From Pseudomonadota bacterium (GTDB taxonomy: Bacteria > Pseudomonadota > Alphaproteobacteria > Rhodospirillales > Casp-alpha2): DNA of 33,544 nt. The notes below the pieces were generated by a model that was given only the letters and a program-made list of their open reading frames with translations, ran no database searches and was not told where the DNA came from. Positions 5,532-32,683 of this stretch are shown one piece after another; the first letter of the stretch is position 1; each line of letters begins with the position of its first letter. The DNA lies in assembly GCA_022564115.1 (NCBI GenBank), contig JADFMB010000006.1:1-33544 (forward strand), given 5' to 3'. The position numbers were made by a program, and so were the translations under genes.

Positions 5532-6917
5532 TTAATGCCCCCGCCGCCGGAAACGCGCCGCGTCGGCGGCATCGAGGCGCACCTTCAGGTGGATGGCGTC
5601 GGCCTTGTCCTGGCGCTCGACGACCTCGCCGTGATCGTATAGCCACGCCAGCGACGCCCCGTCGCCGTGGGCCAGCGATACCTCGATGAGCTTGAAGCGC
5701 TTGGTGATCCGCTCGTCGATGGCGGCGATCAGTTGCTTGCACCCGTCGCCCTTGATCGCCGATACCATCACTGTCGGGATGTTGCTTCGCCGAGTCCGGT
5801 TGGCCAGGGCCTCCCTTTCCGCCGCCGTCATCAGGTCGATTTTGTTCAACACCTCGATCAGGGTTTTCTCGACGCCGTCGCCCAATCCCATATCCCGGAG
5901 CACCGCCAGCACATCGGATTTTTGCGCTTCCGTATCCGCATGGGCGGCGTCGCGGACGTGAACGATGACGTCGGCTTCCACCACTTCCTCGAGGGTGGCG
6001 TGGAAGGCGTTGACCAGTTCATGCGGCAGTTGGGAGATGAAACCGACCGTATCGGACAGGATGGCGGTCCGGCCCGACGGCGTCTCGAACCTCCGCATGG
6101 TCGGATCCAGGGTGGCGAAAAGTTGGTTCTCGGCTTTGACCTTGGACTTGGTCAGGCGGTTGAACAGGGTCGATTTGCCGGCGTTGGTGTAACCGACCAG
6201 CGCCACCACCGGATAGGGCACTCGGCGCCGCGCCCGGCGATGAAGCTGACGGGTGCGCTTGACGTCCTTGAGTTCCCGCTTCAGACGGGTGATGCGTTTG
6301 CCGATCAGGCGGCGGTCGGTTTCGATCTGGGTTTCGCCCGGGCCGCCCATGAAACCGGCGCCGCCGCGTTGGCGTTCAAGATGGGTCCAACTCCGGACCA
6401 GGCGGCCGCGTTGATAGGTCAACGCCGCCAGCTCGACTTGCAATCGGCCCTCGCGGGTCCGCGCGCGCTCGCCGAAGATCTCCAGAATAAGCCCGGTGCG
6501 GTCGATGACCTTGCATTGCCAGTCCCGTTCCAGGTTGCGCTGTTGCACCGGCGTCAGCGGCGCGTCGACGATGACGACGGTGATCTTGCCCCTGTTCATC
6601 GCCCTTCCCTGGGCCCTTCCCTGGGCCCTTCCCCGGTCTTTCTCTTCGCCTTCGCCGTTGGCGCCGATGAGGCTGCCTAAGCGCTTGACGACGCCGGACC
6701 CGAACAATGTTGCCGGCAGGCGCCGGCCCAAGGTGACGATTTCGGAATGGACGATGTTGAGATTGATGGCCTTGGCCAAGCCGACGGCTTCGGCCAGGAG
6801 CGCGCCCTCCCGGCCGGCCTTGGGCGCTGATTTCAAACGCGGATGAACGACCAAACACGTTTCCCCGTCCCGGTCCGGGACGGAAGATCGCTGGTCGGGT
6901 TTTCGAGGTCCCGTCAA
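5532..6917 (-). CDS. hflX: Ribosome-associated GTPase HflX
   Basis: The 461-residue product has the HflX N-terminal domain, a glycine-rich linker with the family signature FMGGPGETQIETDRR (about 189-203), and the GTPase: P-loop GYTNAGKS (242-249), DTVG (289-292) and NKID (358-361). HflX binds the 50S subunit and rescues or splits stalled ribosomes. It lies 12 bases after hfq, the standard partner. The start is TTG at 6917 with GGAAAA just before it; no ATG fits better. An oddity is residues 95-106, an RGRAQGRAQGRA run made by three 12-base tandem repeats inserted in the N-terminal domain. The C-terminal end, after the GTPase, has the short extra domain usual in proteobacterial HflX. Confidence 0.95.
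   Translation of the reverse strand: MTGPRKPDQRSSVPDRDGETCLVVHPRLKSAPKAGREGALLAEAVGLAKAINLNIVHSEIVTLGRRLPATLFGSGVVKRLGSLIGANGEGEEKDRGRAQGRAQGRAMNRGKITVVIVDAPLTPVQQRNLERDWQCKVIDRTGLILEIFGERARTREGRLQVELAALTYQRGRLVRSWTHLERQRGGAGFMGGPGETQIETDRRLIGKRITRLKRELKDVKRTRQLHRRARRRVPYPVVALVGYTNAGKSTLFNRLTKSKVKAENQLFATLDPTMRRFETPSGRTAILSDTVGFISQLPHELVNAFHATLEEVVEADVIVHVRDAAHADTEAQKSDVLAVLRDMGLGDGVEKTLIEVLNKIDLMTAAEREALANRTRRSNIPTVMVSAIKGDGCKQLIAAIDERITKRFKLIEVSLAHGDGASLAWLYDHGEVVERQDKADAIHLKVRLDAADAARFRRRGH
6601..6636 (-). repeat. Three 12-base tandem repeats inside hflX
   Basis: The plus-strand unit GCCCTTCCCTGG occurs at 6601-6612 and 6613-6624, and again at 6625-6636 with one change (C for T). Because the unit is a multiple of three the hflX frame is kept, and each copy adds the residues G-R-A-Q. 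This is a coding minisatellite that can gain or lose units by slippage. Confidence 0.9.
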
Positions 6918-6929
6918 TTTTCCGGCCGA

Positions 6930-7190
6930 CTATGTCTCGACAGCGGCCTCCGCCTCTTTTTCGGGTTCGAATAATTGGATCGGCACCGACGGCATGACCG
7001 TCGAAATGGCGTGCTTGTAAACCAATTGGGTGTGCCCGTCCCGGCGCAACAGCACCGAAAAATTATCAAACCAAGTAACGATTCCCTGAAGTTTTACGCC
7101 GTTGACCAGGAAAATGGTTACCGGCGTTTTCTGTTTCCGGATGTGATTCAGGAAAACGTCCTGCACGTTTTGCGACTTTTCGGACGACAT
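6930..7190 (-). CDS. hfq: RNA chaperone Hfq
   Basis: The 86-residue product has the Sm1 part ([24 protein letters not shown]) and the Sm2 part with VYKHAIST, and a short acidic C-terminus typical of alphaproteobacterial Hfq. The hexamer binds small RNAs and mRNAs and supports pairing and decay. I place the start at the ATG at 7190: AGGGGG lies 8 bases upstream, and the protein then begins MSSEKSQ as in relatives. A GTG at 7199 would add three residues but sits inside that ribosome site. The gene is followed 12 bases later by hflX. The upstream interval (7200-7333) may hold a promoter, but no box pair with proper spacing is convincing. Confidence 0.97.
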
Positions 7191-7333
7191 TGATGCCACC
7201 CCCTTTTTTTTCTTGAACCCGATCGATCAGGGGATAGACCGCGGGTTTCTCCCTGTTTATCAATTGGTTATTACTTTTCCCCTTCCCCAGCCCGGCGGCC
7301 CTCGCCGGGGGGACCCTCGACGTGAAAATAATC

Positions 7334-21550: not shown

Positions 21551-21883
21551 ATGGAACTTTCAATCGTTGAAGAAGGCGAAATCGCCGTCGTTACCCTGAA
21601 AGGCGACATCGACCTCGAGCATTCCGGCCGCATGCGGCAAAACCTTTTGGACGTCCTCGGCAAGGCCCGCGCCGTCATCGTCGATTTGAGCGGCGTCGCC
21701 ATGATCGATAGTTCCGGCATCGCCAGCCTTCTCGAAGGGTTCCAGGAGGCGCGCAAGAAGGGTAAGGATTTCGTCCTCGCCGCGCCCAGCGACCCGGTGA
21801 TGAGGGTCCTTAAGCTGGCCCGCCTGGATACGGTGTTTCAGATCGCCGACGACGTGACGGCGGCGAAGGAAGCGGTTTCCTGA
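21551..21883 (+). CDS. STAS-domain anti-sigma factor antagonist (SpoIIAA/RsbV-like)
   Basis: The 110-residue product is a single STAS domain: VVTLKGDIDLEHSGRMRQNL, then VIVDLSGVAMIDSSGIASL, where S54 or S55 is the phosphorylation site, and LAAPSDPVMRVLKLARLDTVFQI. Such proteins bind anti-sigma kinases when unphosphorylated, or act in partner-switching and lipid-transport complexes. No kinase, phosphatase or sigma-factor gene is adjacent, so the partner is elsewhere. The ribosome site is weak. An AT-rich stretch with CATAAT about 40 bases upstream could include the promoter. Confidence 0.88.
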   Translation: MELSIVEEGEIAVVTLKGDIDLEHSGRMRQNLLDVLGKARAVIVDLSGVAMIDSSGIASLLEGFQEARKKGKDFVLAAPSDPVMRVLKLARLDTVFQIADDVTAAKEAVS

Positions 21884-21982
21884 CGCAAAGATTCCTTGCC
21901 AGACCGGCGCTTGGGCGGCGTCTTGCTTTAATAAAATCCTATAACGATTTGATATTAAATAATATTAAACCGGGGTTGCAGG

Positions 21983-22011
21983 TTGCGGCCGGGGTCAAAA
22001 ACTGCTTATAA
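21983..22011 (+). promoter_or_regulatory. Putative promoter of the structured RNA
   Basis: TTGCGG (21983-21988), a 17-base spacer and TTATAA (22006-22011) form a plausible sigma-70 promoter with a start near 22018. It comes after a strongly AT-rich segment (about 21930-21970) that could act as an UP-like element. No coding frame follows it before the terminator at 22125. Confidence 0.45.
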
Positions 22012-22022
22012 AAAATGCTTTC

Positions 22023-22038
22023 TGTGACCGCCGTCACA
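22023..22038. promoter_or_regulatory. Perfect TGTGA-N6-TCACA palindrome (CRP-type site or RNA stem)
   Basis: TGTGACCGCCGTCACA is an exact match to the half-sites recognised by CRP-family regulators, with the correct 6-base spacer. If the promoter at 21983-22011 is used, the palindrome falls at about +6 to +21. It would then be either a roadblock or repressor site, or simply the first hairpin of the RNA. If transcription starts near 22072-22092, it would be at an activating position. The sequence alone does not decide. Confidence 0.5.
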
Positions 22039-22124
22039 TCGTAAACGGACCCGTTTGTGCACAATGGGATTGTAGGATGGATTTCGTGAAAACGAATCCT
22101 CCCTTCCCTCAAGAGCACAAACTC

Positions 22125-22151
22125 AAAGGCCGGGTCTCCCCCGGCCTTTTT
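22125..22151 (+). terminator. Strong intrinsic terminator
   Basis: AAAGGCCGGG (22125-22134) pairs perfectly with CCCGGCCTTT (22140-22149) across a five-base loop, followed by a run of T to 22153. This is the clearest rho-independent terminator in the window. It ends a plus-strand transcript that contains no coding frame. Confidence 0.92.
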
Positions 22152-22230
22152 TTGGTGAAATCGCCCGAATTTTGACGTTTGTCCGAAAACCGCCGGCCGT
22201 GTCCCCGGGGCGGCGGTAAAAGAAGAAAAA

Positions 22231-22280
22231 TGGTCGGAGCGGCGGGATTCGAACCCGCGACCCCTACACCCCCAGTGTTG
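22231..22280 (-). tRNA. 3' part of tRNA-Pro(GGG); attachment-site half of an integrated element
   Basis: On the minus strand this is the distal part of a tRNA: anticodon loop CTGGGGG (22269-22275, anticodon GGG), 3' anticodon stem TGTAG, variable loop GGGTC, T-arm GCGGG-TTCGAAT-CCCGC, acceptor strand CGCTCCGA and encoded CCA (22231-22233). The 5' anticodon stem reads CAACA where CTACA is needed, and no convincing D-arm or TCGGAGC acceptor strand follows. The tRNA is therefore cut in its anticodon arm, a common crossover point for tyrosine integrases. The intact gene should be rebuilt at the far end of the island. Identity as proline is from the anticodon and acceptor sequence. Confidence 0.8.
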
Positions 22281-22396
22281 GGAGCTACGTTATTCCCCGT
22301 TTAGACGCCTTGCGCTATATCCTGAAAAATCAAGTGATTGTATGATGATATCATTAATCTGTTGAACGCTACATAACGACGCATTATGATGACAGT

Positions 22397-22418
22397 TGCT
22401 TACCCGGTGCTTACCCGG
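22397..22418. repeat. 11-base tandem direct repeat upstream of the integrase
   Basis: TGCTTACCCGG occurs twice without a gap (22397-22407 and 22408-22418), between the tRNA fragment and the integrase start. Short direct repeats at this place are typical arm-type binding sites of tyrosine integrases, or operators for the integrase promoter. The function is inferred. Confidence 0.7.
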
Positions 22419-22465
22419 CCAAAGCGGCACCGAAATCCAACTGGCTCAGTATGGGAGCGTTCATC

Positions 22466-23668
22466 ATGGCGAAATTGACAGTCCGAACCGTCCAAGCGGC
22501 CAAGCCAGGAGACCGTGATATCTACATTTGGGATGAAAAACTTTCGGGCTTCGGCCTTCGCGTGAAGTCGTCCGGCGTAAAAAGCTTCATCATCCAGTAT
22601 CGGAACCTCCACAACGTCTCAAAGCGCATGACCTTGGGGCGATTTGGCGTCATCTCTCCCGAAGAGGCCCGGACAAAAGCTAATAGGTTGCTAAACGCTG
22701 TCGCTGACGGCGTTGACCCAGCCAGGGACAAGCAAGAGGCCCGCAATGCCCCGACAATGGCGGAACTGGCCGAACGGTACATGGACGAATACGCCAAGCC
22801 GCGAAAGAAGCCCAGCGGAGTTGAACAGGACGAGCGCAACATTCGTTGCCACATCCTTCCTGCCCTCGGTAAGAACAAAAAGGCGGCGGACGTGTCGCGC
22901 CAGGATGTGATGAAAATGACCAACGGGCTTAAGGACACCCCCGGCGCGTCCAACCGTGCGCGGGCGGTCTTATCGAAGATGATGGAGTTGGCGGAAGTGT
23001 GGGGCGTTCGCCCGCCCAACTCGAACCCCTGCAAGCACGTCAAGAAGTACCCCGAGAGCAAGCGCGAACGGTTTCTGACCCTGGAAGAATTCAACCGCCT
23101 TGGCGAGACACTTGCCGAGGCCGAACACCAAAATGTGGAATTGCCACAAGCCATCGCCGCCTTCAAGCTGTTGATTTTTACCGGCTGCCGGCGCGGGGAA
23201 ATCCTCGGGCTCCGGTGGGATGAAGTGGACTGGGAGCGCCAATGTCTTCGCCTAACGGACAGTAAGACCGGCCCCAAGGTGGTTCACTTGAACGCCCCCG
23301 CCCTTCAAGTGTTACAAGGTATCGAGCGCAAGGAAGGAAGCTCCTGGGTTATTCCAGGCCGAAACCCCGGCGAACACCTTGTTGATGTTAAGGGGCCGTG
23401 GCGACGGATAAGGAAAAAGGCTGGACTTGAGGGACTGCGAATTCATGACTTGAGGCATAGTTTCGCCAGTATCGGCGCGGTTGGTGGTGTCCCCCTTCAA
23501 ATGGTGGGAACGCTGTTGGGACACGCTCAGGCCAGTACGACGGAGCGGTATAGCCACCTTGCGCCTGACCCCGTCAAGGCCGCAAATGAAATGATTGGTG
23601 CAAGGATTGCCGCCGCGATGAAGACGGGAGGCAACGGAGAGGTAGTGGAACTGCCACAAAGGCGCTGA
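22466..23668 (+). CDS. int: Tyrosine integrase of a tRNA-targeting genomic island
   Basis: The 400-residue product has a DUF4102-like N-terminal arm-binding domain (DIYIWDEKLSGFGLRVKSSG), a core-binding domain (about 95-185) and a complete catalytic domain. Catalytic residues are R242 in FTGCRRGEILGLRW, K267 in DSKTG, H327 and R330 in IHDLRHSFAS, H353 in LLGHAQ and the nucleophile Y362 in TTERYSHL. It should be active. I prefer the ATG at 22466, with GGGAG 8 bases before it; an ATG at 22451 adds five residues. It lies next to the tRNA-Pro fragment and points into the island, the usual arrangement for P4-type integrases. Confidence 0.95.
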   Translation: MAKLTVRTVQAAKPGDRDIYIWDEKLSGFGLRVKSSGVKSFIIQYRNLHNVSKRMTLGRFGVISPEEARTKANRLLNAVADGVDPARDKQEARNAPTMAELAERYMDEYAKPRKKPSGVEQDERNIRCHILPALGKNKKAADVSRQDVMKMTNGLKDTPGASNRARAVLSKMMELAEVWGVRPPNSNPCKHVKKYPESKRERFLTLEEFNRLGETLAEAEHQNVELPQAIAAFKLLIFTGCRRGEILGLRWDEVDWERQCLRLTDSKTGPKVVHLNAPALQVLQGIERKEGSSWVIPGRNPGEHLVDVKGPWRRIRKKAGLEGLRIHDLRHSFASIGAVGGVPLQMVGTLLGHAQASTTERYSHLAPDPVKAANEMIGARIAAAMKTGGNGEVVELPQRR

Positions 23669-31153: not shown

Positions 31154-32683
31154 TCATTTCTTCCGCACGAATATGAAGTCGCCGCCGTCGTGACCGGCCT
31201 GGCGAACATCGCCATATTCCGGCGTCTGCTTGGCGGCAAGCATTACCGGGCGGCGCATCTTGTTGAACATCGTGGTCCCGTCTATGACCGACGCATTATC
31301 GCGAAGGACATCCATGAACGCTTTGGCAAAGGGCGAGTGGCCACTGCCGCCCATATCGACAACAGGCTCCAATCCGCCGGACGTGAGGACCACTCGCGCC
31401 CATTTCTTCGCCATCCGCTGCCAATAATCATCACCCCGCTTCGGCGACTTCGTGCGGGAGCCACGGACAAGTGAGCCGGAAAAGCAACTGTCCGCAACCA
31501 CCATCACGTGCTTCGCACTTAACCCTTTCAGAGTGTCAGTAATAGTCGCGTTGGAAATCCAACCGCTCCGCCGGTGCTGCTCCGCCTCGACGGGTTGCCA
31601 GTAGCCCCGATCCACTTCTTCGTCCAGCACCCCGTGACCGGCGTAATAAATCAAAAGGTTGTCATTTGGCCCAAGGGCCTCCCGGTATTTGTCGAGCGCA
31701 TCGAGAATATCGCTACGGGATGGATTGATTAGCTGCTTCACCGTGAAGCCGTAATCGTCTTTCAGCAACTTGGCCACTGCCCTCGCGTCTTTGGCTGCCG
31801 TTTTCAGCTTGGGCAGGTACTTGTACTTGTTGATGCCGATGACCAGCGCGTGGTAGTTGCCGAAATCGATGCCGCCCAAGGCCAAGCGAGAAATATCTCC
31901 GCCCGCCTGACCGGCCGGGGTCCGCTCCGCAAGAGCCTGTCTCAGGCGCGCGATTTCGGCTATACGCGCCTTTGCTTCCTTTGCCCTGCTGCGTTCCTCC
32001 CCTTCCGCCTTCCGTTTTTCTTCTTCCTTGAGAAGGCGCTCGGATTCTAATTGGGCGCCCGTTCTCGCCACCGTGGTGGATGCTAGTGCTGAACCTTGAA
32101 CATCGGATCCGCCGGTGCTGGCGGCAACGGGTGACCCGCCGAGTTTAGCGATCAGACTGCGATCAGCGTTGAACCATTGGGTAAACGAATTGAATGCGTC
32201 GGCCAAGGCTTGCTCGGTATCGGCGATAAGCCCCGAATTCCCGCCCCTGTTCTCATATTTTTTGAGGATGTTGCCCTCCACGTCCATGAAAGTCACCGAA
32301 ATCATGCCGGATGCCCTGTCAATCAGCATGGTCAATGAATAATTCGTGCGCCCGTCAATGATGGCGATTAGATCGGCTCCCAGTTTTTTCGCTTCCTGTC
32401 TGCTTGTGGCGGTCTTAACCGTAGCGAAGCGACTGCCAAAAAAATCCTGGATTGCTTTCACGATCACGCCGCCGCTCCAATCATGTGCCGCCGCGAAGTT
32501 CGAGGTGAACATGAGCGCCAAATTATATTTGGAATAGGGTGATTGGATGACCGGTCCCACGCTTTCAAATTCGATGGGTGGCTTAACATAGCCCGGCTGT
32601 TGATTGTAGGTTGACCCCAATTCGCAGGCGGTTGTCGCGATGGTGAGAATAACAATCGCAAACGCCGAACGGATCTTGTTCAT
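31154..32683 (-). CDS. Caspase-like (peptidase C14) lipoprotein
   Basis: The product has 509 residues. A lipoprotein signal ends at C20 (ATTAC followed by E, which predicts outer-membrane sorting). Residues ~35-170 form an alpha/beta domain with LGADLIAIIDGR and VTFMDVEGNIL, like small lipoprotein domains of unknown role. A charged coiled coil follows (about 213-255, ESERLLKEEEKRKAEGEE onwards). The caspase domain occupies ~275-509: HALVIGINKYKYL, catalytic His in LIYYAGHGVLDE and catalytic Cys in VMVVADSCFSGSL. Both catalytic residues are present, so it is probably an active Arg/Lys- or Asp-specific protease facing the periplasm. AAGGAGG with AGGGGG precede the ATG. Its gene follows that of an exported protein of a tandem pair on the same strand. 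Confidence 0.88.
   Translation of the reverse strand: MNKIRSAFAIVILTIATTACELGSTYNQQPGYVKPPIEFESVGPVIQSPYSKYNLALMFTSNFAAAHDWSGGVIVKAIQDFFGSRFATVKTATSRQEAKKLGADLIAIIDGRTNYSLTMLIDRASGMISVTFMDVEGNILKKYENRGGNSGLIADTEQALADAFNSFTQWFNADRSLIAKLGGSPVAASTGGSDVQGSALASTTVARTGAQLESERLLKEEEKRKAEGEERSRAKEAKARIAEIARLRQALAERTPAGQAGGDISRLALGGIDFGNYHALVIGINKYKYLPKLKTAAKDARAVAKLLKDDYGFTVKQLINPSRSDILDALDKYREALGPNDNLLIYYAGHGVLDEEVDRGYWQPVEAEQHRRSGWISNATITDTLKGLSAKHVMVVADSCFSGSLVRGSRTKSPKRGDDYWQRMAKKWARVVLTSGGLEPVVDMGGSGHSPFAKAFMDVLRDNASVIDGTTMFNKMRRPVMLAAKQTPEYGDVRQAGHDGGDFIFVRKK

Follow-up and report, generated by a model that had tools for sequence, protein, structure and literature searches.

What does the non-coding stretch downstream of a STAS-domain gene encode in this alphaproteobacterium (GCA_022564115.1, contig JADFMB010000006.1)? 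The window, by which we mean the whole analysed DNA of 33,544 nucleotides, belongs to a genome of 2.66 Mb in 236 contigs that is 85% complete. A sequence-only reading had placed an unannotated structured small RNA at 22018-22151, with nested helices, a CU-rich arm and an intrinsic terminator. The small RNA with its CU-rich arm and terminator is supported by covariation, by conservation and by the absence of any Rfam match over threshold, while the limits had to be revised, as the conserved transcript is shorter (22072-22153) and would start near 22072. On the plus strand, these positions look like a conserved transcript, predicted from the DNA, in which a 5' hairpin and a terminator, both covarying, flank the unpaired and nearly invariant core UUCCCUCAAGAGC (Table 1). 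It would represent a conserved and apparently undescribed small RNA family of Rhodospirillales.

Table 1. Positions of the small RNA, its parts and control elements, and the genes discussed in the text.
Feature	Position	Strand	Remarks
hflX	5532-6917	-	beside hfq; hflX domains
hfq	6930-7199	-	Pfam PF17209, E 1.9e-32; likely RNA chaperone
STAS-domain gene	21551-21883	+	conserved upstream neighbour; Pfam PF01740, E 6.5e-19
CRP-type operator TGTGACCGCCGTCACA	22023-22038		centre 22030.5, -41.5 from predicted start; matches CRP consensus TGTGA-N6-TCACA
-10 element CACAAT	22060-22065	+	homologue majority CATAAT; from operator-only alignment of 56 homologues
Small RNA	22072-22153	+	about 82 nt; start predicted, end at terminator T run; covariance-model match
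5' hairpin	22075-22102	+	GAAA loop in this species, GGA:UCC base; fold and covariation
Unpaired core TTCCCTCAAGAGC	22104-22116	+	almost invariant; proposed pairing region
Intrinsic terminator	22125-22153	+	10-bp stem (22125-22149), 5-nt loop, T tail; fold, scan and covariation
tRNA-Pro(GGG) 3' remnant	22231-22277	-	about 47 nt; matches 3' part of relatives' intact tRNA-Pro(GGG)
Tyrosine integrase	22451-23668	+	Pfam PF00589, E 1.4e-24; neighbour, not part of the small RNA

The sequence-only reading had held the many perfect complementarities of the region to be unlikely by chance, and the region folds better than expected by chance. The minimum free energy of 22018-22152 (135 nt) is -54 kcal/mol, compared with -33.4 +/- 3.5 in 200 shuffles (z -5.8), and the predicted transcript taken alone reaches z -4.6 against shuffles. 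When the sequence is folded by itself, just one element appears beyond the two conserved hairpins, a weak stem of 3 bp in the linker. The perfect 10-bp stem ascribed to the terminator was recovered, followed by a T run.

A first alignment (A1) was made with MAFFT from 47 sequences chosen for having the operator, after 12 of 59 distinct candidates had been dropped (ten that lacked an operator at the expected place, and two that lie at contig ends). Because the hairpin and terminator were misaligned in A1, in which RNAalifold found only 5 pairs, it was set aside in favour of covariance-model alignments, which lean towards the structure of the model. In alignment A4 (47 distinct homologues), 95.8% of cells are paired, both partners vary in 19 of 21 pairs and the covariation score is 0.500, whereas shuffles give 0.144 and slid partners no more than 0.115; none of 500 shuffles reaches the observed values, and the pairing falls to 59-66% when partners are slid by one column. 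In alignment A5 (83 homologues), 94.7% of cells are paired and the covariation score is 0.617 against 0.179, which no shuffle reaches; both partners vary in every one of the 19 pairs, which is also the case in 23 of 500 shuffles, while the other four measures are reached in none. Both alignments favour the structure to some degree, because they were fitted to the covariance model. Within A4, 9 of the 11 pairs of the 5' hairpin change on both sides with pairing kept, and in the terminator stem all ten pairs do so across homologues.

The core between the two hairpins is far more constant. Eleven of its 13 positions deviate in no more than one of 83 aligned homologues, with the first T found in 78 and the last C in 81, although this constancy is somewhat overstated because many homologues were found via the core itself. 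No conserved reading frame passes through it: half of the testable homologues (40 of 80) have no ATG-opened frame there, and in the remaining 40 such frames occur in all three frames (frames 2, 0 and 1 in 23, 11 and 7 cases). This counts against a small protein or a dual-function RNA.

The sequence-only reading had also described a nested architecture, in which a perfect 6-bp stem precedes an 8-bp outer helix enclosing two hairpins, and this was not supported. The complementarity of TGTGAC and GTCACA is present in 22023-22038, but we read it as a DNA operator and not as an RNA stem, because the predicted start is downstream of it and the two halves, TGTGA and TCACA, are near-constant while the RNA hairpins covary. 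The 8-bp helix pairs GTTTGTGC (22053-22060) with GCACAAAC (22115-22122), which are complementary here but seldom fully so in homologues. Covariation and conservation in relatives had been proposed as the test both for this helix and for the GAAA-loop hairpin; the hairpin is present and passed, and GTTTGTGC/GCACAAAC failed. At the same offset in 56 homologues, all 8 pairs form in 2 and 2-4 pairs in 41, and one arm is promoter spacer (positions -19 to -12), so that the helix was rejected as accidental.

In order to summarize the operator among homologues, we used 68 distinct sequences chosen by core and terminator only. TGTGA-N6-TCACA occurs within 150 nt upstream of the core with no more than two mismatches in 62 of 68 (42 perfect, 14 with one mismatch and 6 with two; six have more), a count with a mild bias because the BLAST query behind part of the set included the operator. 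In shuffles, two mismatches or fewer are reached in 5.5% and a perfect site in 0.03%. Two of the six homologues without an operator in this range (L117 and L150) carry one further upstream. Moreover, in 33 of 40 further loci around covariance-model matches, a site with no more than two mismatches lies in the 120 nt before the match, and 19 of these 33 sites are centred 30-60 nt upstream of the match start. Within one genus (g17), L117 and L121 have the operator some 110 nt before the model match, which suggests an RNA with a longer 5' part and an extra 5' domain, and no operator was seen within 120 nt upstream in L112 and L120.

The distance between operator and RNA is also informative. We aligned the 56 of 68 homologues with a site (two mismatches or fewer) 60-85 nt before the core on the operator centre alone, with the start set at +41.5 from it. 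In this alignment a -10 element emerges at -12 to -7, in which 45 of 56 homologues have A at -11 and 48 have T at -7, the two key bases of a -10 box. Nowhere else between operator and RNA is the conservation as high; position -33, which adjoins the operator, ranks next. An operator centred at -41.5 together with this -10 pattern fits a class II CRP promoter. The promoter-like pair of the sequence-only reading was not confirmed, as a scan of 21880-22230 found no sigma-70 pair of TTGACA/TATAAT type. The sequence features of a CRP class II promoter are thus found with respect to a predicted start: TGTGA-N6-TCACA at -41.5, a -10 element, and no need of a -35 box. A CRP class II promoter probably drives the small RNA, with CRP as the likely bound protein.

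Five CRP/FNR-type HTH proteins exceed the Pfam cut-off in the genome, and at least two of them (L155 and L156) carry a cNMP-type cassette, judged by eye. Because of these five proteins, the operator could be bound by another CRP/FNR member, e.g. a sensor of oxygen, NO or cGMP, and the small RNA would then report another signal; we regard this as possible but somewhat unlikely. It gains from the fact that the best CRP candidate, L155, matches known CRP only distantly. The best NCBIfam model of L155 is CRP (E 1.8e-21), with 76.6 bits far below the 266-bit cut-off, and the solved structures that match it best are those of PCR12 and of other Crp/Fnr regulators, followed by catabolite gene activator chains at about 1e-14. 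Against another regulator, L155 carries, by eye, a nucleotide-binding cassette and an RETVxR recognition helix (RETVAR), which resembles the RETVGR of E. coli CRP. The half-site TGTGA, which we take to be of CRP type and not the TTGAT of FNR, counts against it too.

Is the RNA a member of a known family? A covariance-model check with Rfam agreed with the earlier failure to match it to a named small RNA family: no family reached its gathering score at the small RNA or anywhere in the window, and in 20 homologue loci none did so at the small RNA, with only three tRNAs and a group II intron found elsewhere. The sub-threshold matches to alpha-r15/AbcR, suhB/MmgR, SorX and SorY share layout and terminator style with our RNA, not the core. 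For alpha-r15/AbcR (RF02345), with a gathering score of 40 bits, the window gives 23.1. These alphaproteobacterial RNAs resemble ours in the hairpin, the CU-rich unpaired anti-SD motif, the intrinsic terminator and the tandem copies. AbcR1/2 are described in PMC7143759 as RNAs of 114-120 nt beside lsrB, with three stem-loops and two CU-rich motifs. In contrast, the three stem-loops and two CU-rich anti-SD motifs of AbcR are replaced here by two conserved stem-loops and one CU-rich core, combined with a CRP-type operator and a tRNA-Pro neighbour. For suhB/MmgR (RF00519; threshold 41), scores of 31.3 (L029), 27.9, 26.0, 25.1 and 22.7 bits were obtained in 5 of 10 loci scanned; it has a similar length (77 nt) and some homologues have the same ACUU-GGGCCG approach to the terminator, but CAAGAGCA is missing from the printed model consensus. 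The singlet oxygen resistance RNAs SorX (RF02784) and SorY (RF02651) are alike in the hairpin, the CU-rich strand and the GGCCG terminator, with scores far below gathering (25.4 vs 46.6 bits and 34.2 vs 111 bits). RsaE/RoxS (RF01820) of Firmicutes is alike in its UCCC-rich unpaired pairing region and scores 20.9 bits against a gathering score of 79.

These likenesses raise a second alternative, namely that the small RNA is a distant Rhodospirillales branch of the suhB/MmgR (RF00519) - alpha-r15/AbcR (RF02345) clan, and therefore would regulate transporters or storage metabolism as the members of that clan do. The sub-threshold ar15 and suhB/mmgR matches recur, their E-values over short stretches are low (L029: SorY 9.7e-6, suhB 4e-5; L129: suhB 2.6e-4), and the order of hairpin, CU-rich strand and GGCC-type terminator is shared. 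Against this stand the gathering scores, reached at the small RNA neither in the window nor in 20 homologue loci, and alignments that rest mainly on the terminator, judged by eye, with CAAGAGCA not found in the clan models. We consider membership of the clan unlikely. In the literature searched, the core strings occur only in papers unrelated by title, and none of the matches listed describes the small RNA; because of these searches and of the Rfam scans of the window and 20 homologue loci, we call it undescribed. Small RNAs of Azospirillum are the subject of PMC7685610.

The reading that we prefer, and hold to be likely, is a stand-alone trans-acting small RNA of Hfq type, which is activated by CRP and whose core pairs with ribosome-binding regions of mRNAs. 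Its sequence has an apparent promoter of its own, an intrinsic terminator with U tail and a conserved unpaired seed, the features of Hfq-dependent trans-acting small RNAs in general, and Hfq itself is encoded in the window, as had been pointed out. In the proposed mechanism, a CRP-family activator bound to the operator in the class II position (-41.5) would recruit RNA polymerase to the -10 element of a promoter without a recognisable -35 box, and transcription would start near 22072 and stop at the intrinsic terminator. The 5' hairpin would shield the RNA and present the CU-rich core single-stranded, and with the help of Hfq the core would pair with GAGGGAA-like ribosome-binding regions of several mRNAs, leading to repression. 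In this way the RNA would carry the CRP signal of the cell, be it cAMP or another effector, over to control at the post-transcriptional level. We infer each of these steps, i.e. transcription, CRP binding, Hfq binding and repression; the pairing step is suggested by the anatomy of the RNA and by analogy with AbcR and NfeR1 small RNAs as presented in PMC7143759.

In order to look for targets, we searched complements of the core before start codons. The pattern TTGAGGGAAG-N1-14-ATG has 34 matches in 41 genomes, three of which are the antisense of the small RNA itself (G048:C42, G011:C98 and G057:C17), while permutations of the same ten letters give 26 and 11; by this comparison, sites complementary to the seed show no clear excess in front of start codons. 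Other core-complement searches before ATG gave 20 matches in the 41 genomes and 74 within the genus (6 genomes). When run backwards as a control, the searches with 34, 20 and 74 matches yielded 3, 1 and 2, but such a control lacks the direction of a ribosome site, and the permutation control covers the first pattern only. Some matches lie at real-looking starts, named by eye as a MeaB-type GTPase-like protein, transporter permeases, a porin, fumarylacetoacetate-hydrolase-like proteins and PurB, and no convincing recurrent target was found among the matches in the 41 genomes and the 6 of the genus.

Instead of base pairing, the RNA might work by protein binding, e.g. as a sponge of CsrA type with its GGA motifs. 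GGA is found at the base of the hairpin in 60-64 of 73 aligned rows per position; it is paired with UCC, though, and covaries (AU, UA and GC types), while the near-invariant part is the unpaired core, so we consider protein binding quite improbable.

CyaR and Spot 42 are enterobacterial trans-acting Hfq small RNAs, which a CRP site drives or controls. They belong to a different order and resemble our RNA in the proposed control scheme (a CRP site on a small RNA). A broader view of the trans-acting RNA preferred here is that it is an undescribed order-wide riboregulator of Rhodospirillales, in which a single-core small RNA carries the CRP signal to many mRNAs as an independently arisen counterpart of CyaR, Spot 42 and AbcR; to this we give an even chance. 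If it is transcribed, many Rhodospirillales, including the magnetotactic Magnetovibrio blakemorei MV-1, gain a conserved small RNA with a hypothesis for its regulator and its pairing region. Since Crp affects magnetosome formation in Magnetospirillum gryphiswaldense, according to PMC4754748, a Crp-controlled small RNA in a magnetotactic relative would be directly testable. Moreover, a core of about 13 nt that is constrained between freely covarying hairpins offers a clean case of how targets hold one small RNA seed.

How widely is the family distributed? By BLAST with a 171-base query, 85 of 100 genomes match at E <=1, many of them by chance, and 34 at <=1e-5. An exact 18-base core pattern was found in 48 stretches of a named genome collection: 26 of them carry Rhodospirillales or Rhodospirillaceae in their titles, further ones come from M. 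blakemorei MV-1 (locus L048), Defluviicoccus and Thalassospiraceae, and 7 bear names of other groups, have no operator and look like chance. It is from these titles that we take the order in the counts below to be Rhodospirillales. A covariance model built from the window and three relatives (R1) found 49 places in the window and 44 of 79 loci, and the window sequence, which is itself included in R1, matches over all 82 positions (1-82 of 82). Its successor R2 has matches in 110 of 317 genomes of the order. For the third model (R3) we took 83 matches from the window and 78 loci, leaving out near-identical loci and L140 and L141, which have no core. R3 matches in 131 of 317 genomes; 186 have no R3 match. 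Among genomes at least 90% complete and with no more than 5% contamination, 87 of 212 match R3.

In a class-wide sample of 385 genomes searched with R2 under strict filters, 5 match at E <=1e-4, of which 2 are in the order. The three others were rejected as members: one has no core, one a degraded core, and one a core and terminator without operator. Within the reach of these searches, the family is confined to the order. Outside it, L287 (G494, near 1525 on the minus strand) shows the core TTCCCTCAAGAG and then a terminator, with no operator seen by eye in 120 nt, and may be a chance match or a remote relative. A plasmid search with L129 as query gave no match.

Some loci contain more than one copy. 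Tandem copies exist in L038, L055, L057 and L063, from a Magnetovibrio and three related assemblies, and each copy has its own operator. Two genomes of one genus in the same order (G070 and G090) have 8 and 6 R3 matches, which is a local expansion of the family.

The neighbouring genes are in part conserved. Among the 30 homologue loci of L001-L031, a STAS homologue is found in 12 and an intact tRNA-Pro(GGG) in 14, and no other tRNA was found in the stretches covered. The weakest alternative is that there is no separate gene and that the STAS gene, which lies upstream on the same strand, simply ends in this RNA as its 3' UTR and terminator. One paralogue (L069), which has no operator and adjoins an open frame, speaks for it. 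However, this can hardly be so: 56 of 68 homologues have a well-spaced operator, some of them at loci in which no STAS gene was detected, and tandem copies have separate operators. In L069 itself (positions 473-551; G001:C145), a second copy of core, hairpin and terminator lies directly after an apparent open frame and is operator-less, as if a small RNA may have turned into a 3' UTR or come from one.

The placement of the RNA between the STAS gene and tRNA-Pro held for the upstream side; on the downstream side only the 3' remnant of the tRNA is present, beside the integrase. ARAGORN detected no tRNA in the window, and the remainder of tRNA-Pro(GGG) was not found there. Judging from the sequence, 22231-23668 is the trace of an integrase-bearing element inserted in tRNA-Pro(GGG), which left the 3' end of the tRNA beside the small RNA. 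A tmRNA match on the minus strand (19 bits) is accounted for by the remnant and was rejected. Beyond the integrase, a 509-aa open frame at 31154-32683 on the minus strand has a caspase-type peptidase C14 domain (Pfam PF00656) and is possibly cargo of the inserted element.
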